Shown: positions 4,550 through 43,158 of the stretch, one piece after another
How positions within the stretch are numbered: position 1 is the first letter of the stretch
Layout: every line of letters begins with the position of its first letter
From: an uncultured Lachnospiraceae bacterium
GTDB lineage: Bacteria > Bacillota > Clostridia > Lachnospirales > Lachnospiraceae
Direction: 5' to 3'
Length of the DNA stretch: 43,934 nucleotides
Assembly (NCBI GenBank): GCA_902780385.1
Contig: CACZFF010000025.1
Location: 1 to 43,934, forward strand
Translations under genes and position numbers: made by a program
Notes under the pieces: generated by a model
What the model was told of the DNA's origin: nothing
Databases searched by the model: none
Seen by the model: the letters and a program-made list of their open reading frames with translations, nothing else

Positions 4550-5017
4550 ATGACAGACTACACTCTGCTTGTGGAACAGGCCGCATCCATGATTGAAACG
4601 GAGCCGTATTATGTGGCTGCGCTCTCGAATATATCTGCGCTGATCTATGAATCCATGGACCGCCTCAACTGGGCAGGCTTTTATCTGATGGATAAGGGAA
4701 GTCTTCTGGTCGGTCCTTTTCAGGGACTGCCGGCTTGCATACGGATCGAGATTGGAAAAGGCGTCTGCGGCACAGCTGTAAAAGAAGAAAAGATTCAGCG
4801 GGTGGCAGATGTCCATGCTTTTCCTGGTCACATTGCCTGCGATGCGGCATCCAGGTCGGAAATTGTCCTTCCCATCCGCAGTGACGGAAGGATCGTGGGT
4901 GTCCTGGACATCGACAGCCCCGAAGCGGAGCGCTTTTCCATAGAGGATGAAAAGGGCCTGGCTTTGCTGTCGGATCTGATCGGAGCAAAGGCGGACTTTG
5001 CAGGTCTGCGGACCTGA
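4550..5017 (+). CDS. msrC: Free methionine-(R)-sulfoxide reductase (GAF-domain fRMsr)
   Basis: 155 residues, essentially a single GAF domain. Family members reduce free L-methionine-(R)-sulfoxide with thioredoxin and act in oxidative-stress repair in the cytosol. Three cysteines at residues 63, 73 and 97 have the same spacing (10 and 24) as Cys84, Cys94 and Cys118 of the E. coli enzyme. The surrounding GPFQGLPAC, GKGVCG and DAASRSEIVLP motifs are family hallmarks. AAAGGAAAT precedes the ATG. The end of the gene is unusual: its last 13 codons form the first copy of a 38-bp tandem repeat that continues into the spacer, and the stop codon is the first codon of copy two. Confidence 0.92.
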   Translation: MTDYTLLVEQAASMIETEPYYVAALSNISALIYESMDRLNWAGFYLMDKGSLLVGPFQGLPACIRIEIGKGVCGTAVKEEKIQRVADVHAFPGHIACDAASRSEIVLPIRSDGRIVGVLDIDSPEAERFSIEDEKGLALLSDLIGAKADFAGLRT

Positions 5018-5128
5018 TCGGAGCAAAGGTGAATTTTGCAGGTCTGCGGACCTGATCGGAGCAAAGGTGAATTTTGCAGGTCTGAGGATCTGATCGGAGC
5101 AAAGGCGGACTTTGCAGGGCAGAGGTGG
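4977..5128 (+). repeat. 38-bp tandem repeat, about four copies, seeded in the 3' end of msrC
   Basis: Copies begin at 4977, 5015, 5053 and 5091, each starting TGATCGGAGCAAAGG. Copy 1 is coding (the last residues of the methionine sulfoxide reductase). Copies 2-4 are non-coding and carry few substitutions; the fourth is incomplete at its end. 38 is not a multiple of three, and TGA at the start of copy two fixes the protein end. Confidence 0.9.
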
Positions 5129-5324
5129 TGATCCGGCTTTTTCGGCTGTACATCTCGCGGTGCAGTGGTTGATGCAGAAACCCTTTTAATGTAAATTATT
5201 GTATATACATGTTTGCAAGTACATGGGCATGTCAGCACGGTTATCGAACATGCCAACACAGGGGAGATATTGTCTGTTTCAAGATTACAGCACTATGCAG
5301 ACAAAGCGGAAAGCAGGGGAGCTG

Positions 5325-6323
5325 ATGAGACGTTACGAAGAAAAAGAGCTGCAGCAGGAAATGGAGCTGGTGGAAAAATATCTGTCAGAATACCTGCGCG
5401 ACCCGGGATACGGGGGTGCAGTGGGAAATATTCTCCGCGATATGGAGAATTCAAAAGGAAAGCGCCTGCGTCCGCGCCTCTTACTGATGGCCAGCCGATA
5501 TGGGAAGGGTCTGGATCCTGCAGTGCGTGAGCGCCTATGTCGTCTGGGAGCCCTGGTGGAACTGGTCCATATGGCATCGCTGATCCACGATGATATTGTC
5601 GATGATGCTCCGCTTCGCCGCGGACTTCCGACCACGCAGTCAAAGTATGGAAAGGATATGGCAGTCTATGCCGGTGACCTTATTCTGAGCCGGATCGTCC
5701 AGAGTCTCTTCCGGGACGGTTTCTATCAGGTCGGGGCCCTGTTCGGTGATGCTGTTGAGTCCATGTGCCTGGGAGAACTGGGACAGATGGAGTGCCGCGG
5801 CCGTGATGATGTTACAGTAGAGCAGTACCTGCGCAATATTTACGGGAAAACTGCCGCCCTATGCAGACTTGCCTGCCTGGCGGGCGCGGTAGAGAGCGGG
5901 TGCAGTGAAGAAGTGCAGGCACAGCTGGAACAACTGGGCATCAATTTCGGTTATATGTTCCAGATTAGGGATGATCTGCTGGATTTTATTTCCGATACAG
6001 AAGAGGAAGGCAAACTCACGCAGATGGATTTCAGGGAAGGAATCCTGACACTGCCGGTTCTTTATGCCATGCAGGACCAGCAGGCAAGGAAACGTATCAC
6101 TGGTCTTTTACAGGCGGCAAGGGAAGGCGCGTTCGGCGCAGACCAGGCCCGCGATTTGAAAACGATCGTAGCAGCTTCCGGCGGCCTTGCGAAGGCTGCA
6201 GCGGATATGGAAATGTACGCGGAGCGCGCCCTGCAGGCAATTGAAACACTGCCTGACCACGGTGTGAGCGCAGTATTCCGGGAACTTCTGCAGGCCAAGT
6301 GCAAAGTGTCGGCAGCAGGTTGA
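5325..6323 (+). CDS. Polyprenyl (trans-isoprenyl) diphosphate synthase, heptaprenyl-type
   Basis: 332 residues. The enzyme condenses isopentenyl diphosphate with an allylic diphosphate to make a medium-chain prenyl diphosphate. The first aspartate-rich motif is LIHDDIVDDAPLRRG and the second is FQIRDDLLDF; GKRLRPRLLL upstream is the conserved basic patch. The start at 5325 follows AGGGGAG with ideal spacing; an open frame upstream to 5199 lacks one and reads through non-conserved sequence. Length and motifs fit HepT/IspB-type long-chain synthases. Product length cannot be deduced. There are no quinone or carotenoid genes next to it, so the pathway is unclear. Confidence 0.88.
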   Translation: MRRYEEKELQQEMELVEKYLSEYLRDPGYGGAVGNILRDMENSKGKRLRPRLLLMASRYGKGLDPAVRERLCRLGALVELVHMASLIHDDIVDDAPLRRGLPTTQSKYGKDMAVYAGDLILSRIVQSLFRDGFYQVGALFGDAVESMCLGELGQMECRGRDDVTVEQYLRNIYGKTAALCRLACLAGAVESGCSEEVQAQLEQLGINFGYMFQIRDDLLDFISDTEEEGKLTQMDFREGILTLPVLYAMQDQQARKRITGLLQAAREGAFGADQARDLKTIVAASGGLAKAAADMEMYAERALQAIETLPDHGVSAVFRELLQAKCKVSAAG

Positions 6324-6367
6324 GAAAAACACGAAATTGTTTAAAATGAAATTGCTCGGGATGAAAA

Positions 6368-9510: not shown

Positions 9511-9606
9511 GGAGGAGACAGGGAGACAAGGGACGGTTCTCTGTCTCCTTTTCCCCAAGGAGACAGGAGGAGACAGCGAACCGTCCCCTGTCTCCTCCCC
9601 TGTCTG
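9511..9606. repeat. Large imperfect inverted repeat with GGGACGGTTC core
   Basis: The arms 9511-9550 and 9557-9598 are near-complements, each made of repeated GGAGACAG/CTGTCTCC words. The cores are GGGACGGTTC on the left and GAACCGTCCC on the right. The same core recurs at 11733-11799 and 17123-17162, so this is one member of a dispersed short family. It resembles REP-type elements. It sits between the membrane protein gene and the Hsp70-like gene and could also act as a terminator. Confidence 0.8.
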
Positions 9607-11720: not shown

Positions 11721-11732
11721 GTCACGACAGGT

Positions 11733-11799
11733 GTCACGGGGACGGTTCCAATGACAATGTTATGTTGTCACCGGGGACGGTTCCATTGACAATGTTACG
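11733..11799 (+). repeat. Two direct copies of a GGGGACGGTTCC element
   Basis: Copies at 11733-11766 and 11767-11799 share GGGGACGGTTCCA, TGACAATGTTA and leading GTCAC. They follow the Hsp70-like stop codon at once and belong to the same core family as 9511-9606 and 17123-17162. Confidence 0.8.
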
Positions 11800-11861: not shown

Positions 11862-11993
11862 TATCAACTCAGCAGGCTATCAACTGCTATCAACTCAGCA
11901 GGCTATCAACTGCTATCAACTCAGTAGGCTATAAACTCAATAGGTTATAAACTCGGTGGGCTATAAACTCAATAGGTTATAAACTCAGTGGGT
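11862..11993 (+). repeat. Degenerate 16-bp tandem array (TATMAACTCARTRGGY)
   Basis: About seven 16-base units with two shortened 10-base units (TATCAACTGC) in the first part. The first copies read TATCAACTCAGCAGGC and later ones TATAAACTCAATAGGT, so the array drifts along its length. Together with the preceding direct repeats it fills most of the 11721-12057 spacer; I see no gene there. Confidence 0.85.
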
Positions 11994-12057
11994 GATAAAT
12001 GAATATGTACCATAATTGACAGAATAGAACATGCATTTTTGAGAAGAGGATTTGATT

Positions 12058-12705: not shown

Positions 12706-13122
12706 ATGAAAAAACTCAGGGTATATGATATCAATCTTTCTCCGGAAACACAGGCAATTGACACGGAAATCGGTGCAGCTTACCGCCGCGTGACCACCAT
12801 GCTGTACACACTCAATGCGCGCGGTGCAGATGCAAAGTATCTGAATCTGCACAGGGATTCTTTGATTTTCATGGAAAGCCCTGCGGTGCAGCAGATCATG
12901 CGCACAGACGGAATGGACGGATTCCCCTGCATGACCGCAGACGATGAAATCGTGATTTCCGGACGCTACCCCTCCAATGAGGAGATTCTGGAGCAGCTTG
13001 ATGCCGATATGCTTTCCCTTCTCGCAAATCCTTCCGGGGCGTTTGCGGGCAGCGGCTGCAATGGTGTATGTTCCTCCTGTCACAGCGCATGCGGTGTTCC
13101 TTCGGGAGCTCAGCAGTCATGA
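12706..13122 (+). CDS. ArsD-like metallochaperone-fold protein with C-terminal cysteine cluster
   Basis: 138 residues. The body follows ArsD (arsenic metallochaperone, thioredoxin-like): MKKLRVYDI at the start, LNLHRDSLIF, and the conserved TADDEIVISGRYPSNEEI. In ArsD the As(III)-binding cysteines sit near residue 12; here that region reads NLSPETQ and has none. Instead the tail carries CNGVCSSCHSAC (Cys118, 122, 125, 129), a C-x3-C-x2-C-x3-C cluster. It may still bind a thiophilic metal, but through a different site. No ArsA, ArsB or ArsR is adjacent. AAGGAGG precedes ATG at ideal distance. The neighbouring flavoprotein suggests a redox or metal stress unit (inference). Confidence 0.7.
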   Translation: MKKLRVYDINLSPETQAIDTEIGAAYRRVTTMLYTLNARGADAKYLNLHRDSLIFMESPAVQQIMRTDGMDGFPCMTADDEIVISGRYPSNEEILEQLDADMLSLLANPSGAFAGSGCNGVCSSCHSACGVPSGAQQS

Positions 13123-13144: not shown

Positions 13145-13212
13145 GAAAGAATCATAAAGCAGAAAGAATCATAAAGCAGAAAGAATCATAAAGCGGAAAG
13201 AATCACAATACA
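13145..13212 (+). repeat. 17-bp tandem array, four copies
   Basis: GAAAGAATCATAAAGCA starts at 13145, 13162, 13179 and 13196; the last copy is degenerate. It follows the ArsD-like gene by 22 bases. Confidence 0.92.
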
Positions 13213-13330: not shown

Positions 13331-13470
13331 ACCGGAGCGCCTTTGCGCGACGGTTGCGAGAGGAGAATTCGCGGAGGTGAATTCTCCGAGCGGTCACAGG
13401 AGGTTTGGGCCGCTTCGCGGCACAAACCTCTGATAGTGAAAAATATCGTATCGACGATATTTTTCACTAT
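13331..13470. repeat. Palindrome-rich element at the 5' end of the GH3 gene
   Basis: Three successive perfect hairpins: GGAGAATTC/GAATTCTCC (13362-13370 with 13379-13387); AGGTTTG/CAAACCT enclosing GCCGC/GCGGC (13401-13429); and a 17-bp stem ATAGTGAAAAATATCGT (13433-13449) pairing with 13454-13470. The last stem encodes the start of the lipoprotein signal peptide. The sequence from about 13256 may all belong to one inserted element. Confidence 0.7.
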
Positions 13471-15091
13471 TCTGGTCTGTGTCCTGCTGTCCGGATGCGG
13501 CATTCCGGGCGGCTCCAAAAGCTCTGAGGAAATAATGAAAGAGTCTGGAACAGCGCAATCGGAAGAGATGGAGAAAGTGACTGAAAAGGCAGAGAAGACC
13601 GAAATAACGGAACCGGCAGAAACAGCGGAAAAGACGGGAACAGCAGAAAAGGCCGAAACAGCGGAAACGGTGAAAGGGTCGGAAACGGCAGAAACAGTCG
13701 AAAAAGCGGATACTTCCGAAAAAGCAGAAAAGGCCGAAGCCGAAGCGGCAGAGCAGGCAGGCGCCTCCGCAGAGATGGCCGGAGCGGCGCAGACTTCTGA
13801 ATCTGCCGAACCGCAGCCGGAGTCTCTGACCGGGGAAGAATCTGCCGAACCGCAGCCGAAGCCCCTGACCGGGGAACAGAAGACGGAAAAAATGATTCGC
13901 GATTACCTCGAGACCTTGTCGCTTGAAGACAAAGTCAGCGGCCTTTTTATCATCACACCTGAACAGTTAACGGGATATGACGTGGTTACCGAGGCAGATG
14001 ACCTGGTGCAGGAATCCCTGGAGAAATACCCTGCTGCCGGTCTGATCTTTTTCGGACAAAATATCGTAGATCGTGACCAGGTGCAGAATATGCTGGCATC
14101 CACTAAAGAGTGGGGGAGTGCTTTCCCTGAGAAAGAAAGTACAGCAGTGATGGCTGCTGAAGGCTCAGAAGAAGCAGATATATCATCTACTATTGCTGAA
14201 AACGCAGCGTCAGAGGAAGAGACTTCAGAACCGACAGCTGCTGAAAACGCAGTGGTAGAGGAAGAGCCCGAACCTGAAACAGTATTCCCGCCCTTTCTTG
14301 CCATTGATGAGGAAGGCGGAAATGTCATGCGCATCGGCAGCAGTGCAATCGAAGTGCCCTATGTCGGCAGTATGGGAAGTGTAGGTGCGGCCGGAGATCC
14401 CGAAGCGGCGTACCAAGCCGGCAGTACCATCGGCGCCTATCTGCATGAACTCGGTTTCAACCTGGATCTTGCTCCGGACGCGGACGTACTGGTGGATCCG
14501 GGCAATGTGACTATAGGCGACCGTTCCTTCGGCAGCGATCCTGAGCTCTGCGGACAGATGGTTCACCGTTATGTGGACGGCCTTCATGAAAACGGGATTG
14601 CGTCCTGCCTCAAACATTTCCCGGGTCTCGGAGACACAGAGTCGGACACCCACACTGGTGCCGCATGGTCCTCCAGAACCATTGAGGACTATCGCAGCAC
14701 AGAATTCCTCTCCTTTGGAGGAGGCATCGATGCCGGGACAGAAATGGTGATGATCTCCCACCTGAGCAATTCTGAATTATCCGGCTCGGACCTTCCTGCC
14801 TCCCTCAATAAAACGATCATCGCGGATCTCCTCCGCACAGAGCTGGGATTTAAAGGTATCGTGATCACGGATTCTCTGCGGATGGGCGCTGTCACAGAGC
14901 AATTTGGCAGCGCAGAGGCTGCAGTTACGGCCCTTGAAGCAGGCGTAGATATACTCCTGATGCCCGCTGATTTTCATGCGGCCCGGCAGGGAATCCTGGA
15001 TGCCGTTCATGACGGACGAATCAGCGAAGAAAGAATTGATGAGTCTCTCTTCCGTATTCTGCGCGCACGAGCAGCCCTGGCAGAGTCGTGA
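13436..15091 (+). CDS. Glycoside hydrolase family 3 lipoprotein (NagZ-like beta-N-acetylhexosaminidase)
   Basis: 551 residues if started at GTG 13436, giving a classic lipoprotein signal ending LLSGC with lipidated Cys21. An ATG at 13244 is also in frame but would put 64 odd residues before the signal. An Ala/Glu/Lys/Thr-rich linker follows (about 25-145). The catalytic domain has FLAIDEEGGNVMR, GDRSF, KHFPGLGDTESDTH (acid/base loop, near 393) and VITDSLRMGA with the probable nucleophile Asp near 478. NagZ-like enzymes remove terminal beta-GlcNAc from wall fragments; substrate here is inferred. An acidic low-complexity insert of about 55 residues (around 230-285) interrupts the barrel before FPPFLAIDEEGG, which is unusual. 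No ribosome binding site is clear because hairpins fill the upstream region. Confidence 0.82.
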   Translation: MKNIVSTIFFTILVCVLLSGCGIPGGSKSSEEIMKESGTAQSEEMEKVTEKAEKTEITEPAETAEKTGTAEKAETAETVKGSETAETVEKADTSEKAEKAEAEAAEQAGASAEMAGAAQTSESAEPQPESLTGEESAEPQPKPLTGEQKTEKMIRDYLETLSLEDKVSGLFIITPEQLTGYDVVTEADDLVQESLEKYPAAGLIFFGQNIVDRDQVQNMLASTKEWGSAFPEKESTAVMAAEGSEEADISSTIAENAASEEETSEPTAAENAVVEEEPEPETVFPPFLAIDEEGGNVMRIGSSAIEVPYVGSMGSVGAAGDPEAAYQAGSTIGAYLHELGFNLDLAPDADVLVDPGNVTIGDRSFGSDPELCGQMVHRYVDGLHENGIASCLKHFPGLGDTESDTHTGAAWSSRTIEDYRSTEFLSFGGGIDAGTEMVMISHLSNSELSGSDLPASLNKTIIADLLRTELGFKGIVITDSLRMGAVTEQFGSAEAAVTALEAGVDILLMPADFHAARQGILDAVHDGRISEERIDESLFRILRARAALAES

Positions 15092-16303: not shown

Positions 16304-16444
16304 GCAGATGCAATCGCTGCGCAGACGCAGCCGCCGCGCAGACGCAATAACTTCCCGGACGGATTAGCCGCACAGATGGATTGGCTGCGCAGACGGATTA
16401 AATGCACAGACAGATTAGCTGCGCAGATGTAATGGCCGTGCAGT
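16304..16444 (+). repeat. Degenerate 16-18-bp tandem array (GCAGACGSATTRSCTGC)
   Basis: About eight units such as GCAGATGCAATCGCTGC, GCAGACGCAGCCGCCGC and CAGACAGATTAGCTGC follow each other directly after the acyltransferase stop codon. It fills almost all of the spacer to the VanZ-like gene. Confidence 0.8.
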
Positions 16445-17105: not shown

Positions 17106-17122
17106 TTTTTCCCAACATACGA

Positions 17123-17162
17123 GGGAGACAGGAGGGAGACAGGGGACGGTTCTTTGTCTCCC
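17123..17162 (+). repeat. GGGGACGGTTC element, single copy
   Basis: GGGAGACA (17123-17130) and TGTCTCCC (17155-17162) flank a GGGGACGGTTCT core, the same core as at 9511-9606 and 11733-11799. The element lies 120 bases before the solute-binding protein start. Confidence 0.8.
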
Positions 17163-17279: not shown

Positions 17280-20114
17280 ATGCTGGATATTCGCAGACAG
17301 AATGGCATGCAAAATCAAATGAAAAAGACGGATCACACAGGGCACTGCAGGGCATCTGCCGTGCTCCTTGCAGCAGTAACGGCGCTTTCGCCGCTATCTG
17401 TCTCTGTTCGGGGGGCGATGCTGAACGGCTTTTTGCCCGCAACGGGCATGCCCGTAATTATGGCTGCTGATGCAGATTCTTCCGGATCTTCAGGGGGCAG
17501 GGAAATCTATGTGCATCTTGCAGATGCGCCGCAGGACCCGGTGCCGTCAAAAGTGATGGACACAGACACAGCAAGCCTGCTGAAGCTGATCAGCGAGGGC
17601 CTGGTGGTCCTGGATGAAAACAACAGACCTGCTCCGGGCTGCGCTGAATCCTGGGAGGTCTCAAAGGACGGCCTGAAGTGGACCTTCCATCTTCGAGATA
17701 ACCTGAAGTGGTCCGACGGTTTTTCCATGAAAGCCTCTGACTTCGTATTACTTTTCAGAAAGACGGCCGACACTTCGACGGAAGCGCTGTACGGCAGCCA
17801 GCTGACACAGAACATTGCCGGCTATGAAGATGTCCTGAACGGTGACGTATCCGCCCTTCAGGTACACGCACCGGATGACAGGACGTTTGTGGTGGAACTG
17901 ACGACCCCCGATCCGGACTTTGCAAGAACCTGTGCGTCCTGGTCCCTTCTTCCCCTCCGCGAACAGATTCGGGAGGATTTTGACGGTGACGTGACGCCGG
18001 ACTGGAACTCCGCGACCGGAAACGGACCCTACTATGTCGATTCTGTCACTTATGAAAAAGAATTTATTCTGAAGAAAAATCCTTATTACAGGCAGGCTGA
18101 TCCAGAAGCGGAAACGGCCGGTGATACTGACGCAGATCAGTCTACTGACATGGCATGGACAGCATTTGACACCGTTCACTGGATTCTGGACGGGGACATC
18201 AACGAGGAATATTCCGATTTCCTCAACGGGGGGATCGATGCGATTTCCGCTCTTCCGGAAGAGGAAGAGAGGCTGCTCGAAACAGAGAAGCTGATTCAGC
18301 AAAAGACTCTTCCCGACACAATGGGAATATGTTTTAACTGCCGCCATGAAGTCCTGGGAGATGCCCGTGTACGCAGGGCGCTCTCCATGGCAGTGGACCG
18401 CACCTTTATCGCCTCGACAGTTCTGCAGGAAGTCTATCTGCCGCAGGGAGGAGACGGCCTGAACGATCAGGGAGATCTGGAGGATCATATTCCGGAGGCA
18501 AAAGAGCTGTTGGAGAAAGCCGGGTATAAGGACGGAAAAGGGATTCCCACTCTGACCTGCATCGCGGAGGAAAAGGGCGGAGCCCTTCTGACCGCGGAAT
18601 ATCTGGCGTCTGCATGGAGAGACCTCGGAATCAATGTGCGGGTGGAAGCAGAAAACGCGGATGACCTTGCCCAGGAAAAAACAGCGGGAACCTTCGATAT
18701 TTTCTGCGGCAGCATTTTCCTGGCGTCAGATCTCCCGGCCGCAGAACTTGCCAATTTTACAACTGATCATGAAAATAATGTCAGCGGTTTTTCTCTGGAA
18801 AAATACGATCTCCTGATCCAAGAAGCTTCGGAAATGTCGGATGAAGAAGACTATACGAAGGCTTTAGAGAAGGCATTTGACATTCTCAGAGAGGAAATGC
18901 CCGTGGTGCCGCTTGTTACGCGGTGTGTCTCCTGGCTGCGCAAAGACGAATATCCGGGAATCACCTGTGACAGCACAGGCTGCTGGCAGCTCAAGGACAT
19001 CCGGCCGGGCTATGCTGTTAATAGAATGGCAAACGACGGCCTATCGGGAAATCGGGATGCATCGGATGATGCATTTCCTGCGGAAAACCAGGATGGAGGC
19101 GGGACAGAAAACGGGACTGCCTCCCTCTCCGGAAGCCGGACCGGAAATCGTATAAAGGAAGTATCCGTCACTGCACAAATGCCTGCGGGAAGATCTGCAG
19201 CAGTACAGGCCGGCAATCCCAAAACACTCCCGCAAATCGGATCACCCGGATCACCCGGAGCAGCCGAATCAGCCGGATCAACAGGAGAAGCTGAAGAAGG
19301 CGGAGCATCCGGATCTTCCGGAACAAGCGTATCTTCCGAAGCAGTCAGGCCGGAGAGACAGGGCAGCACAAAGGCCGCAACAGGTCTTGACCTTATCCGC
19401 CAGTCCGATGCTTATTTTGAAAGGACAAATCAGCAGGCATATCTGACCCGTCAGGCCTGGGTCTATGATGCAGTCGGTGAAAACGCTCAGCGTATTATTT
19501 CTCTTCCCAAATACTCCGAGGTACACCTGACCGGAACAGGCAACTCCCGTCTTGTACGTATTACACAGGACGGAAAATCCTGCTATCTGGAGTCGAACAG
19601 GGTATCTCCGGACACCGGGGTGATTGACAGAATCCATGAAGAGGAGAGAGAGGAACTTGCGGAAAAAGCCATTCTCACCGCATCTCTGCATTCTGTAAAA
19701 GAGAATGAGCTCCAGGACCGCGCCGCAGATGTGCGGGCAAAAACGGATGAGATTCTGGCTGCAATCGCCCACCGCGAGATGATTCGCACCCAGACGCGGA
19801 ATCCCAACTGGAACGGACCTGTCCTTTCCCGCGGACGAGGCTCTGTCATGGGTCCCAGCGGAAAGGAGACTTACTATAATCTCAATATGAGCGGTGTCGT
19901 AAACATTATGCGCCGCATGGGCAATACGGATGAATACTGGGTCCGCGATGACGGCTGCAAAATGCTGGGAGACTATATCATGTGCGCGGCAAACCTCGGC
20001 GTTCACCCCCGCGGCTCGCTTGTCGAGTGCAGTCTGGGCACCTGCATTGTATGTGACACAGGCGGATTTGCCAGCGGCAATCCACATCAGCTGGACATTG
20101 CTGTCACATGGTGA
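17280..20114 (+). CDS. Secreted family 5 solute-binding protein fused to SH3-like and 3D (wall-enzyme-like) domains
   Basis: 944 residues. A Sec signal near residues 25-45 lacks a lipobox cysteine, so the protein is not a lipoprotein. Residues about 65-610 form an SBP_bac_5 peptide/nickel-binding domain (SEGLVVLDENNRPAPGCAES, RRALSMAVDRT). A Gly/Ser/Glu-rich linker runs to about 735. An SH3-like segment follows, then GPSGKETYYNLNMSGVVNIM and a C-terminal 3D-type double-psi barrel ending VCDTGGFASGNPHQLDIA, which matches the Asp-rich active loop of MltA/YabE-type 3D domains. No permease or ATPase gene is adjacent. A peptide-binding module tethered to a peptidoglycan-acting or -binding module is the inference. 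ATG 17280 follows AAAGGG. A 19-bp-stem terminator ends the transcript. Confidence 0.78.
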   Translation: MLDIRRQNGMQNQMKKTDHTGHCRASAVLLAAVTALSPLSVSVRGAMLNGFLPATGMPVIMAADADSSGSSGGREIYVHLADAPQDPVPSKVMDTDTASLLKLISEGLVVLDENNRPAPGCAESWEVSKDGLKWTFHLRDNLKWSDGFSMKASDFVLLFRKTADTSTEALYGSQLTQNIAGYEDVLNGDVSALQVHAPDDRTFVVELTTPDPDFARTCASWSLLPLREQIREDFDGDVTPDWNSATGNGPYYVDSVTYEKEFILKKNPYYRQADPEAETAGDTDADQSTDMAWTAFDTVHWILDGDINEEYSDFLNGGIDAISALPEEEERLLETEKLIQQKTLPDTMGICFNCRHEVLGDARVRRALSMAVDRTFIASTVLQEVYLPQGGDGLNDQGDLEDHIPEAKELLEKAGYKDGKGIPTLTCIAEEKGGALLTAEYLASAWRDLGINVRVEAENADDLAQEKTAGTFDIFCGSIFLASDLPAAELANFTTDHENNVSGFSLEKYDLLIQEASEMSDEEDYTKALEKAFDILREEMPVVPLVTRCVSWLRKDEYPGITCDSTGCWQLKDIRPGYAVNRMANDGLSGNRDASDDAFPAENQDGGGTENGTASLSGSRTGNRIKEVSVTAQMPAGRSAAVQAGNPKTLPQIGSPGSPGAAESAGSTGEAEEGGASGSSGTSVSSEAVRPERQGSTKAATGLDLIRQSDAYFERTNQQAYLTRQAWVYDAVGENAQRIISLPKYSEVHLTGTGNSRLVRITQDGKSCYLESNRVSPDTGVIDRIHEEEREELAEKAILTASLHSVKENELQDRAADVRAKTDEILAAIAHREMIRTQTRNPNWNGPVLSRGRGSVMGPSGKETYYNLNMSGVVNIMRRMGNTDEYWVRDDGCKMLGDYIMCAANLGVHPRGSLVECSLGTCIVCDTGGFASGNPHQLDIAVTW

Positions 20115-20221
20115 ATTGATCAGCCTGAACTGCTGCCGCATGGTGAATACTGATCAGCTGGACATTGCTGTCACATGGTAAATATTGATCAGCTGGACAC
20201 TGCTGTTGCGCAGCGAATGCT
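20085..20221 (+). repeat. 33-35-bp tandem array seeded in the 3' end of the solute-binding protein gene
   Basis: Four units begin near 20085, 20118, 20152 and 20187 with (C/G)ATCAGCTGGACA; the first includes the last residues and stop codon of the upstream protein. The second is the most diverged. Confidence 0.85.
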
Positions 20222-20615: not shown

Positions 20616-22595
20616 ATGAAAAAAGGACTGGTTCTGGAAGGCGGCGGCATCCGCGGTATTTTCTCCGCAGGCGTTATGGATGTTCTGATGGAGGAAGGGA
20701 TTGAATTTGACGGTGCGATCGGTGTTTCTGCCGGTGCGGCTTTCGGCTGCAACTATAAATCACGGCAGCCTCGCCGTGCGATCCGTTACAATTTGAAATA
20801 TGCGAAAGACCCCCGTTATTCCAGTGTTCGTTCACTTCTGAAGACAGGTGATCTTTTTAATGCCCAGTTCTGCTATCACGATATTCCTGAAAAGCTGTAT
20901 CCCTTTGACTGGAAAGCATTTCGTGAGAATCCCATGCAGTTCTTTCTGGTCTGCACAGATGTAGAAACAGGCAAGCCGGTCTACCATTTGTGCGACAATG
21001 ACAGCGACTGGCAGATGCTGGAGTGGTTCCGCGCGTCCGGATCCATGCCGCTTGTTTCCAGAGTTGTAGAAATCGGCAGCCAGAAGCTTCTGGATGGCGG
21101 GATCTCTGATTCGATACCGCTGCGTTTTATGGAAAATAAGGGTTACGACCGCAATGTGGTCATTCTGACTCGTCCCGCAGGTTATGTCAAAGAGCGTGCT
21201 CCTATGATGCGCGTGATCAGCCGTGTACTGCAGCAGTATCCCGAGGCTGTGAAGGCGATGGAAAACAGACACAATGTCTACAATGAGACTCTGGCCTATA
21301 TCCGCCAGCGCGAGGCAGGCAAATTTGCTTTCGTAATCCGTCCCGAGGAAGACCTGGATGTCGGCCGTATCGAACACGACCGGTTTAAGATCCGTGAAGC
21401 CTATAAGGCAGGAAGAAGGGCTGCGCGAAAACGTCTCAATGCTCTGCGCCGTTTCCTCGATGCTGCCGACAATGAAGTGTTTGAGGACGGCACATATTCG
21501 ACCAACGCTTCCATCATTGCGAATGCACCCGGTGCAGAAACCCTCCCTTCCGATGACTTCCTTACTGATGAGGAGAAGACTGCTGCGGAAGCAGCTCCTG
21601 CAGGAGAAGAGAAAGCTGCAGAAAAAGCTCCTTCCTATGTGGGAACGATCGAAGAAGCAATCCCCGCTCCCGCAGAAGAAAAGAAGGATGAAAAGGATGC
21701 ATCATCCTTCCGTGCACAGGTTTTCGGGGAGGCTATAGACGAGCAGGCAGGATTTGAAAAGCCCGTTTCCTTTGTGGACCGGCAGGAAGCTGCGCTGAGA
21801 AGAGAGCGCGAAAGCGCAATGGAAGCCGAGGAAGCTGCCGAGAAAGAGGCGGCTGAGAAGGCAGAAGCCGAGCGGATTGCCGCTGAGAAGGCGGAAGCAG
21901 AGCGCATTGCCGCTGAGAAGGCGGAAGCAGAGCGCATTGCTGCAGAAAAAGCCGAAGCCGAAAGAATTGCCGCTGAGAAGGCGGAGGCAGAACGCATTGC
22001 CGCTGAGAAAGCGGAAGCCGAAAGAATAGCCGCCGAAAAAGCCGAAGCGGAGCGCATTGCTGCAGAGAAAGCGGAAGCAGAACGCATTGCTGCCGAGAAA
22101 GCCGAAGCCGAAAGAATCGCCGCCGAAAAAGCTGAAGCGGAGCGCATAGCCGCCGAGAAAGCCGAGGCAGAGCGAATTGCCGCTGAGAAGGCGGAGGCAG
22201 AAAGAATCGCCGCCGAGAAGGCCGAGGCGGAAAGAATCGCTGCAGAGAAAGCAGAAGCCGCGCGAATTGCCGCCGAGAAGAGAGCGGCCGAAAAGGCGGA
22301 AGCAGAGCGTATTGCTGCAGAGAAAAGAGCTGCTGCCAGAAAAGCCCGCGAGGACATGATTGCTGCAGAAAAGGCAGCTGCCGAGAAAGCCGCCGAGGAG
22401 AAGGCCGCAGCGATGAAGGCGGCGATGGAAAGAGCAGCGGCAGCAAAAGCCTCTGCAGTGACTGGTGCTAAGGATATCGCAGAGAATATATCCGAAGCGA
22501 ATTCTCCCCTCATGCTTCGCGGACGCAGACAGAAAAAGACCTGGAAGCCCGGCAATATGACCAGCCTCAAGAAACAGGAAGGTGAAGAAGAATAA
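20616..22595 (+). CDS. Patatin-like phospholipase with a long EAERIAAEKA repeat helix
   Basis: 659 residues. The patatin domain (1-300) has the oxyanion loop GGGIRG (9-14), nucleophile elbow GVSAG (Ser38) and DGG with catalytic Asp160, forming the Ser/Asp dyad. It acts as a lipid acyl hydrolase; the lipid is unknown. From about 390 the protein becomes Ala/Glu/Lys/Arg-rich and contains about 13 near-identical decapeptides EAERIAAEKA, followed by one EAARIAAEK and degenerate copies. This predicts a long single helix or coiled coil. A basic patch RGRRQKKTWKPG ends the chain, possibly a membrane contact. There is no signal peptide, so it is cytosolic. GGAGGGA precedes ATG 20616; the in-frame ATG at 20571 has none. 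Confidence 0.85.
   Translation: MKKGLVLEGGGIRGIFSAGVMDVLMEEGIEFDGAIGVSAGAAFGCNYKSRQPRRAIRYNLKYAKDPRYSSVRSLLKTGDLFNAQFCYHDIPEKLYPFDWKAFRENPMQFFLVCTDVETGKPVYHLCDNDSDWQMLEWFRASGSMPLVSRVVEIGSQKLLDGGISDSIPLRFMENKGYDRNVVILTRPAGYVKERAPMMRVISRVLQQYPEAVKAMENRHNVYNETLAYIRQREAGKFAFVIRPEEDLDVGRIEHDRFKIREAYKAGRRAARKRLNALRRFLDAADNEVFEDGTYSTNASIIANAPGAETLPSDDFLTDEEKTAAEAAPAGEEKAAEKAPSYVGTIEEAIPAPAEEKKDEKDASSFRAQVFGEAIDEQAGFEKPVSFVDRQEAALRRERESAMEAEEAAEKEAAEKAEAERIAAEKAEAERIAAEKAEAERIAAEKAEAERIAAEKAEAERIAAEKAEAERIAAEKAEAERIAAEKAEAERIAAEKAEAERIAAEKAEAERIAAEKAEAERIAAEKAEAERIAAEKAEAERIAAEKAEAARIAAEKRAAEKAEAERIAAEKRAAARKAREDMIAAEKAAAEKAAEEKAAAMKAAMERAAAAKASAVTGAKDIAENISEANSPLMLRGRRQKKTWKPGNMTSLKKQEGEEE
21866..22270 (+). 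repeat. 30-bp coding tandem repeat (decapeptide EAERIAAEKA)
   Basis: The 30-base units are nearly identical in protein but vary at third codon positions (GAG/GAA, GCC/GCT/GCG). Selection on the peptide is therefore likely, rather than recent DNA expansion alone. Confidence 0.85.
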
Positions 22596-24862: not shown

Positions 24863-24922
24863 GTGAGTAAGGTCTGTGTGAGTAAGGTCTGGGAGAGTAA
24901 GGTCTGGGAGAGTAAGGTCTGC
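24863..24922 (+). repeat. 15-bp tandem array, four copies, inside the transporter operon
   Basis: GTGAGTAAGGTCTGK/GAGAGTAAGGTCTGG units start at 24863, 24878, 24893 and 24908. A shorter CCAATGGTCC repeat precedes them (24829-24849). The array lies between the permease and the binding protein genes. Confidence 0.9.
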
Positions 24923-24999
24923 GGGAGAGTGAAGCGTGGAACAATTCGTGACATCACTTTTGAACTTAGCATCACTCGATCGGAAAGGAGTGAAACGAA

Positions 25000-26916: not shown

Positions 26917-26927
26917 GAATAACGTCT

Positions 26928-27060
26928 GTGGATCTTGCGCGCCGAAGCATAGAATGCTTGTGAATCCTGCGCGCCGAAGCATAGAATGCCAGTGAGTCCT
27001 CCGTGCCGAAGAAAAAGAATAAAATGCTTGTAAATCCTGCGTGCCGAAGAATAAACAGGG
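26928..27060 (+). repeat. 32-bp tandem array, about four copies, inside the transporter operon
   Basis: Units begin at 26928, 26960, 26992 and 27030 with GTGRATCYTGCGYGCCGAAG. The first two are 32 bases and nearly identical; the third is 38. It fills the spacer between ATPase and second permease. Confidence 0.9.
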
Positions 27061-32721: not shown

Positions 32722-32783
32722 AGACCCGCGTAAGTGATGGCTGGAGAATGAAGGCCAATATTTGCGCGGGTCTTATTTTTTTA
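32722..32783 (+). terminator. Terminator after tRNA-Ser
   Basis: AGACCCGCG (32722-32730) and CGCGGGTCT (32765-32773) form a perfect nine-pair stem followed by TATTTTTTTA. Confidence 0.88.
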
Positions 32784-32819
32784 TTCTTCATCGCGAAATA
32801 CCTATGACTACAGCAGCAT

Positions 32820-37090: not shown

Positions 37091-38857
37091 ATGCCGGATG
37101 AAAAATACCTGGCGCTGTATCGCAAATACCGCCCCAATGACTTTGACGATGTCCGCGGGCGCGACGCGATCGTGCGCACACTAAAAAACCAGATCATCTC
37201 CGGGAGAATCGGACACAGCTACCTGTTCTGCGGGACACGCGGAACGGGTAAGACGACGATCGCCCGTATTTTTGCGCGTGCGGCCAACTGTGAAAACCAG
37301 CACGACGGTAATCCCTGCGGAGAGTGTCCGACCTGCCGGGCCATTCAGGCGGAGGCCAATCTCAATGTGACCGAGCTGGATGCGGCGTCCAACAACAGTG
37401 TCGACGATATCCGGTCCATCGTTGATCAGGTGGAGTATTCCCCGACCCAGGGACGCTTCCGCGTGTTCATCATCGACGAGGTCCACATGCTGTCCAACGC
37501 GGCCTTCAATGCTTTACTCAAAACGCTCGAAGAACCGCCCTCCTACGTGATTTTCATTCTCGCAACAACGGAACCCAACAAGCTCCCTGTTACGATTTTG
37601 TCCCGCTGCCAGCGCTATGATTTCGGCAGGCTGGCAACGGATGTGATCGAGGGACGTCTGCGGGAAGTGGCGCAGATGGAAGGACTTGAGGTCGAGGATA
37701 AGGCTTTCCGCTATATTGCCGGCGCAGCCGACGGTTCCATGCGTGACGGCTTAAGTCTTCTGGATCAGTGCAATGCCTTCAATTACGGCGGCGGCACACT
37801 GACCTATGAACGCACACTGGAGATTCTGGGCGCAGTGGACACCGGCGTGTTCGGAGACCTCTACCGCAATATCCACAATGGAAAAGTGGCAGACGCGCTC
37901 AAGGTTCTTGATGAGATTCTGCTCCAGGGCAGAGAACTCATGCAGTTTGTCACGGACTTCACCTGGTATCTCCGCAACCTCATGCTGCTCAAGGCTTCTG
38001 AAGAGACTGCGAAATCTCTGGATATTTCTGCGGACAACCTGCGTCTCATGATCGATCAGGCCCGCATGTCGGATATGGAAGAGATCATGCGTTATATCAA
38101 GGTGTTTTCGGCACTGCCGGACCTCATCCGCTATTCTCCCAACCGCCGTATCCTGACCGAGATGACGATCATCCGGGCATGCCGTTCTGCTATGGATGAC
38201 GGGGCAGAGGGCGGCGAATCTTTGCTCCTTGATAAGATCAAAAACCGTGTCCGTGAAATGGAGACGCGTCTCTATAATAATGAGATGACAATCGAAGAGC
38301 TTGCGGCAGGCGGGGCCGGACCGACAGGGTCTGCCGGCGCGGGCGGCGGTTTTGGAGGAGGCGCATCCGGCCTTCCCGGCGGCGCACATAATAGCCCGGG
38401 CGGAGCAGCAGGCTCATCTGCGGCTTCTGCCGGGAGCGGATCAAAGCAGCCCGCTGTTGCGCAGGAGCTCCCTCCTGCACTGCCCGATGAAATACAGAAG
38501 ATTGTCGCCAACTGGTCCCGGTATGCATCCGAAGCGCCGCAAGGTTCCAGGCGTCTTGCCCTGCGCAATGCCCGGCTCAGTCTGGGAGACCACGGCCAGC
38601 TGCTCATTATTTTTGAAAAAGAATACGGCAATCCGTATTTATACCAGCGCAAAGACAACAATGGAGAATCCACTGCCCGCGTGGACAACGACCGCCGCGA
38701 GCTTCAGCAGTTCCTGCAGGGGAAGGTCGGCAAAGCGATTGAAATCGAATATCGGGTACTTGACAGAGGCGGACGGATAACAGACAATTATGTCGATTTG
38801 CTGTCTCTCGTAGAACCGGGAGCAATTCAAATGTCTGTCGAAACAGATGATACGTGA
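37091..38857 (+). CDS. dnaX: DNA polymerase III subunits gamma/tau
   Basis: 588 residues. The clamp-loader ATPase. RKYRPNDFDDV opens the domain; Walker A GTRGTGKTT (48-56), zinc cysteines 67, 76, 79 and 82, Walker B FIIDE (126-130), and LSRCQRYDF are all present. A Gly/Ser/Ala-rich linker lies near 408-455. No clear slippery heptamer for gamma production is seen. AGAGG lies upstream of ATG 37091. It heads the conserved dnaX-ybaB-recR cluster. The last codons DDT and the stop begin a 32-bp tandem repeat. The usual small SRP RNA was not found in front of it. Confidence 0.96.
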   Translation: MPDEKYLALYRKYRPNDFDDVRGRDAIVRTLKNQIISGRIGHSYLFCGTRGTGKTTIARIFARAANCENQHDGNPCGECPTCRAIQAEANLNVTELDAASNNSVDDIRSIVDQVEYSPTQGRFRVFIIDEVHMLSNAAFNALLKTLEEPPSYVIFILATTEPNKLPVTILSRCQRYDFGRLATDVIEGRLREVAQMEGLEVEDKAFRYIAGAADGSMRDGLSLLDQCNAFNYGGGTLTYERTLEILGAVDTGVFGDLYRNIHNGKVADALKVLDEILLQGRELMQFVTDFTWYLRNLMLLKASEETAKSLDISADNLRLMIDQARMSDMEEIMRYIKVFSALPDLIRYSPNRRILTEMTIIRACRSAMDDGAEGGESLLLDKIKNRVREMETRLYNNEMTIEELAAGGAGPTGSAGAGGGFGGGASGLPGGAHNSPGGAAGSSAASAGSGSKQPAVAQELPPALPDEIQKIVANWSRYASEAPQGSRRLALRNARLSLGDHGQLLIIFEKEYGNPYLYQRKDNNGESTARVDNDRRELQQFLQGKVGKAIEIEYRVLDRGGRITDNYVDLLSLVEPGAIQMSVETDDT

Positions 38858-38942
38858 CAGCGGGAGATTTGCTTGTTGGTGATACATGGCAGCGGAAGAC
38901 TTGCCTGCTGATGATACGTGACGGCAGCAGAGTTGTATGTCG
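38847..38942 (+). repeat. 32-bp tandem array, three copies, seeded in the 3' end of dnaX
   Basis: Copies at 38847, 38879 and 38911 begin (A/G)TGATACRTG. The first contains the dnaX stop codon at 38855-38857; copies two and three are non-coding. Confidence 0.88.
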
Positions 38943-39944: not shown

Positions 39945-39998
39945 AACACAAGCTCTTCTGTAACCGAATGGAATCAAAAAGATACCATTATAATAAAG

Positions 39999-40083
39999 TG
40001 CCGCTCTGAAGAGCGGCATAAGTTATAAGATACCGACCGTAAGAGCGACATATCTTATAAAATGCCGCTCTGAAGAGCGGTAT
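39999..40083 (+). repeat. Row of three palindromes between recR and galM
   Basis: GCCGCTC-TGAA-GAGCGGC (40000-40017) and a near copy GCCGCTC-TGAA-GAGCGG (40064-40080) flank TTATAAGATA (40023-40032) pairing with TATCTTATAA (40051-40060). No T-run follows, so these are not simple terminators. Confidence 0.8.
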
Positions 40084-41165: not shown

Positions 41166-41216
41166 GATACCTGCACACGGAGGGTGCCTGCGCACTGACG
41201 ATATCTGCGCACCGAC
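41166..41216 (+). repeat. 17-bp tandem array, three copies
   Basis: GATACCTGCACACGGAG, GGTGCCTGCGCACTGAC and GATATCTGCGCACCGAC follow each other at 41166, 41183 and 41200 in the galM-DUF5711 spacer. Confidence 0.75.
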
Positions 41217-41245
41217 GTGCTGCGACATGTATGGAAGTGGATAAA

Positions 41246-43003
41246 ATGTCTGATTTTTCTCCTGATATGGAAAAAAACAATTCTTCCAAACTGAATACAG
41301 AGTCTGCGGATACCGGTGTAAAAAAACCGGGCCTCCGCAAAGAGAAGCCCAACCCTGCCGGACCTGCAGAAAAACCCACAGGGGATACTATGCCTTACCG
41401 CATACCGGGAGTTGATTCAACAGATTCAACAGATCCGAAAGAGCCGACAGGAAAGGTAAAGAAGGCAGGGAAAGCAGAGAAGGCAGAAAAGACACAGAAG
41501 GCAGAGAAGGCAGAAAAGACACAGAAGGCAGAAAAGGCAGAGAAGACACAGAAGGCAGAAAAGGCAGAGAAGATGGATGCTGTCGGAGATTCCGGAACTG
41601 CCTCCGGACAGGAAGAAAATCCTGCAGACGATCCGGTCTCTGCACAGGAAGAAACTTCCGCAGATAATTCCGCCTCCGGACAGGGAGAAACTTCCGGGGA
41701 CGATTCTGCTTCCGCGCAGAAAGAAAATTCTGCAGACGGCTCGGCCTCCGCTCAGGAAGGCACTTCCGCAGACGGTTCAGCCACTGGGCAGGAAAAGGAT
41801 GAGAAAGCAGATCCTGCCGCGTCTGCAGACAAGAAGAAGGCCGCAAAATCCAAAACGGCTTCCTATAAGGACAAGATCCTGCGTCACAAAAGAAGAAGAT
41901 ACCGCCGCACCATCATAGTGGTTGTTCTCGCTATGATCATTCTTGTCTCTGCGGTGATCCTCTGGATGCGGCGCGGATATACACGCGCGGAACTGATCCG
42001 GATATCTGCACTTTCATCGGACGACACTGCCTCTTACGAAAACCTTGGCGGAAATGTTGTCCAGTATGGCAACAACGGGGCTGTCTGTGTTGACCAGCGC
42101 GGAAACACCCTGTGGAATGTCACCTATGAAATGCAGCAGCCCATCACCAGTGTCAGTGGGAATGTGATCGCAATCGCCAGCCGCGGCGGATACTATATTT
42201 ATGTGATGGACACCCGGGGCCTGATGGGGACGATCCAGACCACGCTTCCGATCCACAGCATTGCGGCTGCGGAAAACGGCGAAGTCGCGGTCATCATGAA
42301 TGACACCAGGGCGACCTGGATCCGTCTGTACACCGCGGAAGGAAGGGAGATTGCTTATCTGGTCCGCACCATGGAGGAAAATGGCTATCCCATTGCCGCG
42401 GCTGTGTCTCCGGACGGAGAAACACTCTGTCTGTCCAGCGTATCGCTGTCGAATGCTGCTGTAAAGACGGATATTTCCTTCTATAATTTCGGAAGTTCCG
42501 GCCAGAAGAGGAGTGATTACCGGGTGCAGCATTCTGAATCCATTGATGAAGTGTTTCCTTACCTGCACTATATGGACAACACTACCTGCCTCTGTGTCTC
42601 CGACAGGCGGCTGCTCTGCTTCTGGAGCACCTTTATCCGCAGGTCCGGCAGCTCCTATGCTGAGTTTTCTGATAATATCCTGGGCGTTTTCGGCGGAGAC
42701 AGCTTTATCGGCGTCCTTTCTACCAATACAAAAGGAGACAGCCATTATACCCTGAGTCTCTATAACAAACGCGGCAAAAAAGCAGGCAGCGTAAACTTTA
42801 CCATGCAGTACACGGATATAGACCTGGCAGGTGACAAGGTTTATATCCACAACGAACAGGAATGCCAGATCTTCACGATCAGCGGCCGCTGCCTGTTCGA
42901 TGGCAAATTTGACAAATCCATCCGCGCCATGATTCCGGGTGCCGGGCTCAGTGACCTGCTCGTTGTCACAGACGGCGAAGTGGACAGTGTCCGCCTGCAT
43001 TGA
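41246..43003 (+). CDS. DUF5711-like single-pass membrane protein with extracellular propeller-like domain
   Basis: 585 residues from ATG 41246 (GGAAGTGG upstream; ATG 41231 in frame is the other option). The first 220 residues are low complexity: KAEKAEKTQ repeats then Ser/Ala/Asp/Gln-rich repeats (SASAQEGTSADGSA). A basic stretch HKRRRYRR and a membrane helix (222-242) follow. The outside part has repeats such as YGNNGAVCVDQRGNTLW and GGYYIYVMDTRG, like a PQQ-type beta-propeller. This layout fits DUF5711 proteins of Clostridia, whose function is unknown. The CvpA-like gene downstream is likely co-transcribed. Confidence 0.78.
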   Translation: MSDFSPDMEKNNSSKLNTESADTGVKKPGLRKEKPNPAGPAEKPTGDTMPYRIPGVDSTDSTDPKEPTGKVKKAGKAEKAEKTQKAEKAEKTQKAEKAEKTQKAEKAEKMDAVGDSGTASGQEENPADDPVSAQEETSADNSASGQGETSGDDSASAQKENSADGSASAQEGTSADGSATGQEKDEKADPAASADKKKAAKSKTASYKDKILRHKRRRYRRTIIVVVLAMIILVSAVILWMRRGYTRAELIRISALSSDDTASYENLGGNVVQYGNNGAVCVDQRGNTLWNVTYEMQQPITSVSGNVIAIASRGGYYIYVMDTRGLMGTIQTTLPIHSIAAAENGEVAVIMNDTRATWIRLYTAEGREIAYLVRTMEENGYPIAAAVSPDGETLCLSSVSLSNAAVKTDISFYNFGSSGQKRSDYRVQHSESIDEVFPYLHYMDNTTCLCVSDRRLLCFWSTFIRRSGSSYAEFSDNILGVFGGDSFIGVLSTNTKGDSHYTLSLYNKRGKKAGSVNFTMQYTDIDLAGDKVYIHNEQECQIFTISGRCLFDGKFDKSIRAMIPGAGLSDLLVVTDGEVDSVRLH

Positions 43004-43013
43004 TATTCCGGAT

Positions 43014-43158
43014 CGCGGCAGTCCGGGCATTCCACTCCGGGCAATCTGGTTCAGGCATTCCGCTCCGGGCAATCCAGTCCGGGCATTCCGGGCGCTCAGG
43101 GAATTCCGGTTCATGCAATCCAGCCTGGGCAGTCCGGGCATTCCGGGACTTCCGGTAA
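43014..43158 (+). repeat. Degenerate tandem array of GCATTCCGGG/CTCCGGGCAATC words
   Basis: Units such as GCATTCCACTCCGGGCAATC, GCATTCCGCTCCGGGCAATC and CAGTCCGGGCATTCCGGG recur through the spacer after the DUF5711-like stop codon, with a period of roughly 26-30 bases. Confidence 0.8.

Follow-up and report, generated by a model that had tools for sequence, protein, structure and literature searches.

We analysed a stretch of 43,934 nucleotides (hereafter the window), whose gene content is of housekeeping type (dnaX, recR, phosphofructokinase) and which carries short tandem arrays both in its spacers and inside its genes (Table 1). Tandem Repeats Finder (TRF) recovered nine of the ten arrays listed in a preliminary description, with nearly the same coordinates, and the tenth (41166-41216), which lies under the TRF threshold, was confirmed as a real degenerate 17-bp array by its identity of 70% at offset 17, against 11-27% at offsets 14-16, 18 and 19. 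All ten arrays therefore exist. The units had been given as 15 to 38 bp, a range that some best periods exceed (46 and 51 bp), and the arrays at 39993-40079 and 11732-11797, as well as those inside genes, had been overlooked. All the listed arrays had been placed downstream of plus-strand genes; this is true in the window, but it is uninformative since most window genes are on the plus strand, and the array at 16304-16443 also lies downstream of a minus-strand gene.

Three arrays indeed begin within coding sequence, as described (4971, 20086 and 38846). At 20086 and 38846 the first unit is the upstream gene's own 3' end including the stop codon, and at 4971 the same holds with a shifted stop: by eye, the GAF-domain gene owes its present stop codon to the 38-bp shift. 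The same arrangement was seen by eye behind arsD of a relative, G026, and behind the DUF5711 gene of another, G028.

Table 1. Tandem arrays in the window, with unit lengths, copy numbers and flanking genes.
Feature	Positions	Strand	Detection
Array, 38 bp x 3.9; end of GAF-domain gene 4550-5017 serves as first unit	4971..5118	+	TRF
REP-like array of a different kind, 35 bp x 1.9, unit GGGGACGGTTCC	11732..11797	+	TRF
Array, 16/26/32-bp units, behind Hsp70-like gene 9648-11720	11862..11999	+	TRF
Array, 17 bp x 3.6, behind ArsD-like gene 12706-13122	13145..13205	+	TRF
Coding arrays, periods 18/27/36/39, ahead of GH3 domain	13583..13876	+	TRF
Array, 17/34/51-bp units, convergent spacer behind acyltransferase gene	16304..16443	+	TRF
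Coding array, 27 bp, in solute-binding protein gene	19241..19304	+	TRF
Array, 35 bp x 3.6; unit contains the last codons and stop of the solute-binding protein gene ending 20114	20086..20206	+	TRF
Coding arrays, 30/60/90/45 bp, C-terminal extension of patatin gene	21837..22399	+	TRF
Array, 15 bp x 3.8 (30 bp also given by TRF), behind ABC permease gene 24103-24810	24865..24930	+	TRF
Array, 32 bp x 3.8; fills the spacer behind the ABC ATPase gene (end 26916)	26926..27055	+	TRF
Array, 32 bp x 2.4, beginning in the last dnaX codons (stop 38857)	38846..38922	+	TRF
Array, 32 bp x 2.7, behind recR	39993..40079	+	TRF
Degenerate 17-bp array, following the aldose epimerase gene (end 41141)	41166..41216	+	Offset identity
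Coding arrays, 9/27/36 bp, N-terminal part of DUF5711 gene	41460..41782	+	TRF
Array, 14/28/46-bp units, following the DUF5711 gene (end 43003)	43019..43156	+	TRF

The claim that the units are mutually unrelated, and not one spreading family, held: no pair among the 11 TRF spacer arrays of the window has a common 10-mer, and the window units had no match at E 1e-4 in the rest of the genome (1.2-Mb sample). Only the array at 11732-11797 is REP-like by motif among these 11, an assignment that we presume from the motif of its unit. CRISPR arrays were ruled out, as the copies abut without unique spacers between repeats, and a known-RNA reading of the arrays was rejected, because only a tRNA-Ser exceeded the Rfam gathering score in the window.

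Array density across the genome and the genus

We then counted arrays beyond the window, with genes called by a purpose-made hexamer script instead of a standard caller and with one genome per species. In the window's own genome (G000), 60 stretches outside the window, picked by contig number and not at random, contained 139 spacer arrays in 1.2 Mb, or 11.6 per 100 kb, which is about half the density of the window itself (11 in 44 kb). Five array-rich relatives, most of whose contigs were picked for having matches to the window, yielded 16-27 spacer arrays per 100 kb (G026, 49 in 300 kb; G010, 11 in 56 kb; G017, 50 in 269 kb; G028, 52 in 228 kb; G009, 12 in 45 kb). Outside this clade but within the genus, G014, called with its own codon model, had one spacer array in 167 kb. 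Small loci from 25 outside species (34 loci, called with the G000 codon model and including one 4.7-kb G014 locus that overlaps the other G014 sample) had two in 212 kb, and the outside-clade samples of these 25 species gave about 0.8 per 100 kb. Per spacer base, the density in the clade is about 9-fold higher (8.6 vs 0.95 per 10 kb), and the contrast with G014 was stable at TRF cut-offs of 50-120. Chance was rejected as a source, since dinucleotide-shuffled spacers gave no array in each of seven genomes (one shuffle), and five further shuffles each gave 0 or 1.

In a DnaX tree, the measured array-rich species fell into one group (support 100/100). Given the array density across the genome and these relatives, the preliminary description was right in seeing a genome-wide habit and not a local accident, and the habit is indeed clade-wide. 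G008, a clade member by DnaX, had no spacer array and three coding arrays in the 14.3 kb sampled. Several of the named control loci (L152-L231), mostly Bacteroidales and called with the unsuited G000 codon model, had 3-4 arrays in 12-22 kb and are not counted as evidence.

The arrays that we call REP-like are presumably REP / GGGGACGGTTC-type dispersed elements, which are intergenic, numerous in this genome and sometimes tandem, as at 11732-11797. Such elements form a common sequence family, whereas 125 of the 139 G000 spacer arrays do not belong to it by motif. One spreading repeat family was likewise rejected for these 125, only five of which have a unit that shares a 12-mer with another array.

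Reading frame, start codons and turnover

Across six genomes (2.1 Mb), 210 coding arrays were found vs 313 spacer arrays. The period is divisible by three in 206 of the 210 coding arrays, whereas the non-REP spacer periods are spread evenly over the three remainders (104/91/98; divisible in 104 of 293). This suggested that one process, followed by a frame filter, generates both. Periods span 9 to more than 80 and peak broadly at about 14-21, and the copies are imperfect (median match 88%, median 2.8 copies). Furthermore, the arrays unambiguously avoid start codons: only 9 of 198 touch or lie within 5 bp of one, against 46.2 expected (2,000 placements, lowest 26).

Neither the units nor the sites are common to orthologous spacers of relatives. 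A common 11-mer occurred in one of 33 syntenic comparisons (counting the convergent spacer 16298/16478 from both sides), at a locus whose array begins in coding sequence, and an array was present in the ortholog in 11 of 33 comparisons for window spacers with an array and in 14 of 38 for those without. Aligned gene segments of the compared species are mostly about 70-90% identical. We also inspected exact duplications, counting two-copy cases only and requiring the junction to be less than half a period long. In spacers, junction microhomology was 0-2 bp in 50 of 69 cases and 3 bp or more in 19, vs about 3.5 expected. Inside genes, such duplications numbered 2.6-20 per 100 kb in the clade; in G014 there was one event, or 0.7 per 100 kb.

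Duplication rate, selection and rival readings

We favor a clade-specific, chromosome-wide raised rate of short tandem duplication, filtered by selection, at a probability of roughly 0.64. While DNA is replicated or a gap is repaired, a segment of about 10-50 bp would be copied in head-to-tail order, in most cases with microhomology at its ends short or lacking; once two copies are present, slippage or unequal exchange would change the copy number while point mutation degrades the copies. Selection, as its footprint shows, then purges events that shift the frame or disturb a start codon. The survivors are in-frame arrays in genes and arrays of any period in spacers; the latter can begin already in the final codons of the gene upstream and mostly end before the next start. 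Stop codons are thus probably the edge of a tolerant zone and not a target. The likeliest cause is a trans-acting change in replication or repair, because the elevation is confined to one clade among the sampled species. A bolder version is tentative and in our view rather doubtful: a heritable change in a replication, repair or other enzyme, acquired by one clade of Lachnospiraceae (so placed by its named relatives), may continuously produce short, mostly microhomology-free duplications chromosome-wide, with some preference for transcription ends, as a bacterial counterpart of the habit of archaeal Borg elements with a mappable genetic cause. If so, spacers and disordered protein linkers would be rebuilt from duplicated sequence within a species' lifetime.

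It is unlikely that the mutation rate is ordinary and that weaker purifying selection (small effective population, inflated spacers) merely lets duplications persist. Clade spacers are indeed long, with medians of 164-435 bp vs 91.5 bp in G014 (29 to 342 bp in small samples of 11 other species), and between dnaX and ybaB six clade members have a gap of 37-168 bp vs 1-95 bp in 20 outside loci readable by eye, 13 of them under 30 bp; the long spacers would fit weaker purging as well as a higher rate. However, the ninefold excess persists per spacer base, the frame filter in genes is nearly perfect, and exact in-gene duplications are commoner as well.

The preliminary description had instead proposed that a replication, repair or RNA-linked process repeatedly duplicates gene 3' ends; we weighed this as a targeting of 3' ends coupled to transcription ends or termination. 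Under plain uniform placement, 45.5 of 198 arrays would be expected to overlap a stop codon or come to within 5 bp of it, and 60 do. Of the 131 arrays that keep 40 bp or more from the next start, 44 begin at -20 to +15 of the stop vs 26.4 expected. The stop also often lies within the first unit, and convergent spacers are densest (14.5 arrays per 10 kb, vs 6.0 in divergent spacers and 5.7 and 9.3 in co-directional ones). However, when the null allowed the first unit in the upstream gene and spared the next start by 15 bp, array starts up to +10 past the stop numbered 58 of 171 vs 51.2 (P 0.10), and 26 of 83 vs 23.9 in G000 alone. The predicted enrichment near stops is therefore present under some nulls and lost under the start-sparing one; the excess is small and dependent on the null, and we keep a weak preference, up to about 1.7-fold, as possible because some cuts of the same data show it. 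As the 210 in-gene arrays and the 41 arrays in 69 kb of divergent spacers also speak against it, the proposed targeting of 3' ends is improbable, and the case carries a warning that a pattern "at stop codons" can arise from selection on where duplications survive.

It is highly improbable that the arrays are functional 3'-UTR elements under selection for RNA structure, termination or mRNA stability. G000 array RNAs do fold better than array-free spacer pieces, both without the REP-like arrays (median z -1.17 vs -0.33; 29% vs 19% below -2; n=91 each, P 0.001) and with them (-1.18 vs -0.74; 31% vs 14%; n=104 each, P 0.006), and the array behind recR repeats a hairpin-like unit. However, self-pairing may be increased by repetition alone, and shuffling abolishes the repetition; arrays hold no excess of stop triplets (0.0426 vs 0.0455 per bp shuffled), and both units and sites fail to persist between the compared species. 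Finally, although every genome used from the genus is a multi-contig draft, it is scarcely credible that short-read or metagenome assembly manufactured the copies, since these differ from each other and respect the frame in genes, outside-clade drafts are without such arrays, and G028 is equally dense (22.8 per 100 kb); its contig C59 agrees in length and dnaX position with NZ_FNFZ01000029.1 (Sarcina sp. DSM 11001), the title of which carries no MAG label.

Candidate genes and known systems

In our judgement, little is known about what determines how often bacteria duplicate short segments in tandem. We searched 21 genomes (7 of the clade, 14 others) for a causal gene among repair and replication candidates, and none was found. 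Loss of mismatch repair was rejected, as MutS1 exceeded the cut-off in 20 of 21 genomes (6/7 clade; the exception, G010, is 75% complete), and so was Ku end joining, Ku being absent from all 21. Reverse transcriptase, which matched in 10 genomes (5/7 clade, 5/14 other), and family-B polymerase, which matched in none, were rejected too. RecJ was over the cut-off in 20 genomes (7/7 clade; the exception, G006, lies outside the clade) and SbcD in all 21, which dismissed their loss. Loss of the PolA 5' flap-nuclease domain, an idea that reportedly has its basis in yeast rad27 work, was also rejected: the domain is present in 20 of 21 genomes (6/7 clade; missing in G026, 82% complete), and in G000 the PolA frame stays open across both halves. 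Y-family polymerase matches of at least 150 bits were absent from 7/7 clade genomes, and also from G006, G015 and G019, while 11 of the 14 others had one; we regard this absence as a lead and not as a cause.

As one branch of a bacterial genus seems to go on forming short tandem duplications throughout its chromosome, with survival mainly in the gaps behind genes, it offers a natural experiment on the causes of self-duplication in genomes, and not a gene-end device. Because the ninefold contrast lies within one genus, with DSM 11001 (by contig match) on the array-rich side and many array-poor sister species, the rate question is testable by comparative genomics and mutation accumulation. The duplications also offer a way for spacers, gene ends and protein linkers to originate. 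Among the matches listed from open-licence literature, titles and abstract beginnings gave no account of arrays behind stop codons in a bacterial clade.

In the accessible part of a 2019 study of prokaryote "satellites" (PMC6749651), a few species carry many unrelated, unique tandem repeats, for example scattered in Methanobrevibacter ruminantium and clustered in Clostridioides difficile. That part contains no within-genus comparison with and without arrays, the term "stop codon" is absent from the text of the study, and the densities are not directly comparable because detector and copy threshold differ. The 52-nt and 20-21-nt repeats of Bacillus, as far as the available text describes them (PMC8161180, 2021), form many non-coding arrays in some species and few in others and are partially conserved between strains; their unit length is constant (20-21 or 52), unlike the broad periods found here.

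The closest known system, from the available portion of its report, is found in the Borg elements of archaea (Schoelmerich et al. 2023, PMC9879509), which carry tandem repeats. As counted there, Borg repeats are perfect, with 3 or more units and 50 nt or more, on linear extrachromosomal elements with PolB9, whereas the present arrays have a median match of 88% and 2.8 copies, on a bacterial chromosome and with no family-B polymerase in the 21 genomes. The Borg enrichment of A on the coding strand may at most have a weak parallel here, as the difference is small (0.328 in arrays vs 0.302 in the rest of the same spacers). Each Borg array has its own unit, turns over fast between relatives and is rare in related genomes, the first unit often lies partly in a gene end, and in-gene units are divisible by three while most intergenic ones are not; array-specific units, turnover between relatives, rarity in sister species, first units reaching into gene ends and the same division between genes (206/210) and spacers (104/293) were also found here.

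Abundance and independence of the arrays

We searched the window, the entire 43,934-bp contig G000:C25 of a 3.3-Mb draft genome (G000), with TRF, which returned nine of the ten spacer arrays listed in the preliminary description and so confirmed that these are real; the tenth is degenerate, with a 17-bp period. At a score of at least 60, the window contained 11 spacer arrays, including two beyond the earlier list (11732, REP-like, i.e. of a dispersed intergenic family recognised by motif; and 39993), and, after merging, eight more arrays inside genes. The gene content is ordinary chromosomal, with phosphofructokinase, dnaX, ybaB, recR and ABC transporters among others. A SpaA-domain protein gene (21-1255) contains about three repeats of 399 bp, probably ordinary domain repeats.

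Arrays were counted at a TRF score of at least 60 and a period of at least 9 in 1.2 Mb of G000, sampled as 60 stretches of 20 kb each, with genes called by a hexamer-based script. The spacers yielded 139 arrays and the coding sequence 95, as against none in one dinucleotide shuffle of the spacers and 0 or 1 in each of five more. By motif, 14 of the 139 spacer units were REP-like, and only 5 of the 125 non-REP units had a 12-mer in common with another array. The arrays are thus numerous, real and independent, which bears out the earlier claims of a genome-wide habit and of units that do not form one spreading family.

Other repeated elements of the window
Element	Position	Occurrence
REP-like GGGGACGGTTC / GTCTCC element	9512-9606	52 blastn-short matches including self, in 19 of 61 own-genome records
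REP-like GGGGACGGTTC / GTCTCC element	11732-11797	
REP-like GGGGACGGTTC / GTCTCC element	17121-17161	
Dispersed family, ~113 bp	13360-13472	12 matches including self, in 8 of 61 own-genome records; many in relatives
Element of 36-40 bp, ~62 bp behind tRNA-Ser	32775-32814	Many contigs of five relatives, mostly 82-93% identity; just one partial second copy in own-genome sample

The gap separating the genes for the solute-binding protein and patatin contains, at 20250-20420, a conserved non-coding element with ~90% DNA identity in the relatives G010 and G026, where the adjacent solute-binding proteins are only ~62% identical; its orientation is reversed in G009. Judged by eye, it has a strong hairpin; T-runs flank it on each strand, and the minus strand also has C-rich stretches. 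An Rfam search gave no match at the gathering score. The element is a candidate small RNA.

Position, reading frame and turnover

For six genomes, we compared the positions of 198 non-REP arrays from co-directional spacers with uniform placement in the same spacers. Only nine overlapped a start codon or came within 5 bp of one (46.2 expected), indicating that start avoidance is the main positional signal; at stop codons the number was 60 (45.5 expected). The size of the stop-side excess varies with the null chosen. Array starts from -20 to +15 of a stop were found in 44/131 arrays at least 40 bp from the next start (26.4 expected) and in 56/171 at least 15 bp from it (41.0 expected), and any start up to +10 in 58/171 (51.2 expected, P 0.10), or 26/83 in G000 alone (23.9 expected). 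The proposal of a process acting at gene 3' ends is therefore mostly not supported; the stop-side excess appears under some nulls and is slight under another. Convergent spacers were the densest (14.5 arrays per 10 kb, versus 5.7 and 9.3 in co-directional and 6.0 in divergent spacers), a pattern that protection of promoters and start regions would produce. We concluded that stop codons are the edge where tolerance begins; arrays may have a weak additional preference for them.

The periods of 293 non-REP spacer arrays split evenly modulo three (104, 91 and 98), and 206/210 coding arrays had a period divisible by three, which is the mark of a single process at work everywhere, its frame-shifting products purged within genes. 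The distribution of spacer periods peaked broadly at ~14-21 bp and trailed beyond 80 bp, with no single constant length.

In several arrays the first unit is, by eye, the upstream gene's own 3' end. The 38-bp unit at 4971 consists of coding sequence, with the stop supplied by the shifted second copy; at 20086 the unit includes the last codons and the stop, and is single-copy in the five relatives shown. Similar gene-end first units were seen in dnaX, arsD of G026 and DUF5711 of G028. Among 71 syntenic spacer-by-species comparisons, the ortholog had an array in 11/33 where the window has one and in 14/38 where it has none, and an 11-mer in common with the window unit was found in only 1/33, at the GAF locus, where the array starts in coding sequence. 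Arrays are thus gained and lost between species with mostly ~70-90% identity in their aligned gene segments.

Furthermore, we analysed the junctions of exact two-copy duplications (spacer period at least 12). Terminal microhomology was 0, 1 or 2 bp in 50/69 spacer duplications (65.5 expected from chance matching alone) and at least 3 bp in 19 (~3.5 expected); within genes, it was 0-2 bp in 18/23. For most events, then, little homology suffices; a minority used short direct repeats. The junction sequences point, without deciding the matter, to polymerase misalignment or gap repair over slippage between long repeats.

Clade contrast and candidate causes

Five array-rich relatives of G000, namely G026, G010, G017, G028 and G009, had 16.3, 19.6, 18.6, 22.8 and 26.9 spacer arrays per 100 kb, versus 0.6 in G014, a distant member of the same genus, and the contrast between clade and G014 persisted at TRF cut-offs from 50 to 120. 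Small loci of 25 species beyond the clade (212 kb) gave two spacer and eight coding arrays. Pooled, the clade had 313 spacer arrays in 2,097 kb versus three in 379 kb outside (4.7 kb of the outside total being counted twice). A 105-kb sample from two further families of the order gave two spacer and two coding arrays, every one in a single genome (G057). A maximum-likelihood DnaX tree (30 species, midpoint root) placed the six array-rich genomes and G008 on one side of a branch supported at 100/100; the 14.3-kb sample of G008 had no spacer arrays and three coding arrays. The nearest named relative found was Sarcina sp. DSM 11001 (DnaX identity 80%), followed by a Lachnospiraceae bacterium (62%). 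Some Bacteroidales-labelled 20-kb dnaX regions among the control loci (L164, L169, L173, L192, L199, L200, L204, L231 and others) showed three to four non-coding arrays under a codon model unsuited to them; arrays may be common in Bacteroidales too.

Across 21 genomes, none of eight families (MutS1, Ku, reverse transcriptase, Y-family polymerase, 5' flap nuclease, RecJ, SbcD and family-B polymerase) separated the clade. A Y-family polymerase match of at least 150 bits was absent in 7/7 clade genomes, and also in 3/14 others searched. The reading frame of G000 PolA is open, and the protein has a repetitive, low-complexity linker of its own. In several clade genomes (G009, G026, G028, G017 and others) and some outside, the profile matches of the housekeeping proteins MutS1, RecJ and SbcD fell into two parts of a single long frame, a pattern that growth of linkers would give.

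We put the chance that a clade-specific raised rate of short tandem duplication, filtered by selection, explains the arrays at just under two in three. Clade spacers are longer than those of G014, which favours the main rival, relaxed selection in the clade, with retention rather than mutation rate as the cause; counted per spacer base, arrays number 8.6 per 10 kb in the clade versus 0.95 outside. Raised duplication remains the best explanation overall, and the arrays are still read as by-products because neither unit nor site is conserved. Compared with array-free pieces, array RNAs (REP-like arrays left out) folded better (median z -1.17 versus -0.33, P 0.001), which counts against the by-product reading and lowers the best explanation slightly.

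Comparison with known repeats

Among the open-licence papers listed on tandem repeats (titles and abstract starts), we found no account of this clade, nor of a within-genus contrast of the same size with variable unit length. Surveys of prokaryotic satellites describe, in the portions consulted, bursts restricted to certain species (PMC6749651, PMC8161180). Relative to the Borg repeats, as presented in the sections consulted of PMC9879509, the arrays differ in the perfection of copies, the carrier and the polymerase, but are similar in the unit unique to each array, the quick turnover, the frame rule and the first units within gene ends. Enrichment in A, a feature of Borg units, was small here (0.328, versus 0.302 in the remainder of the same spacers). 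In most respects the likeness to Borg repeats holds.
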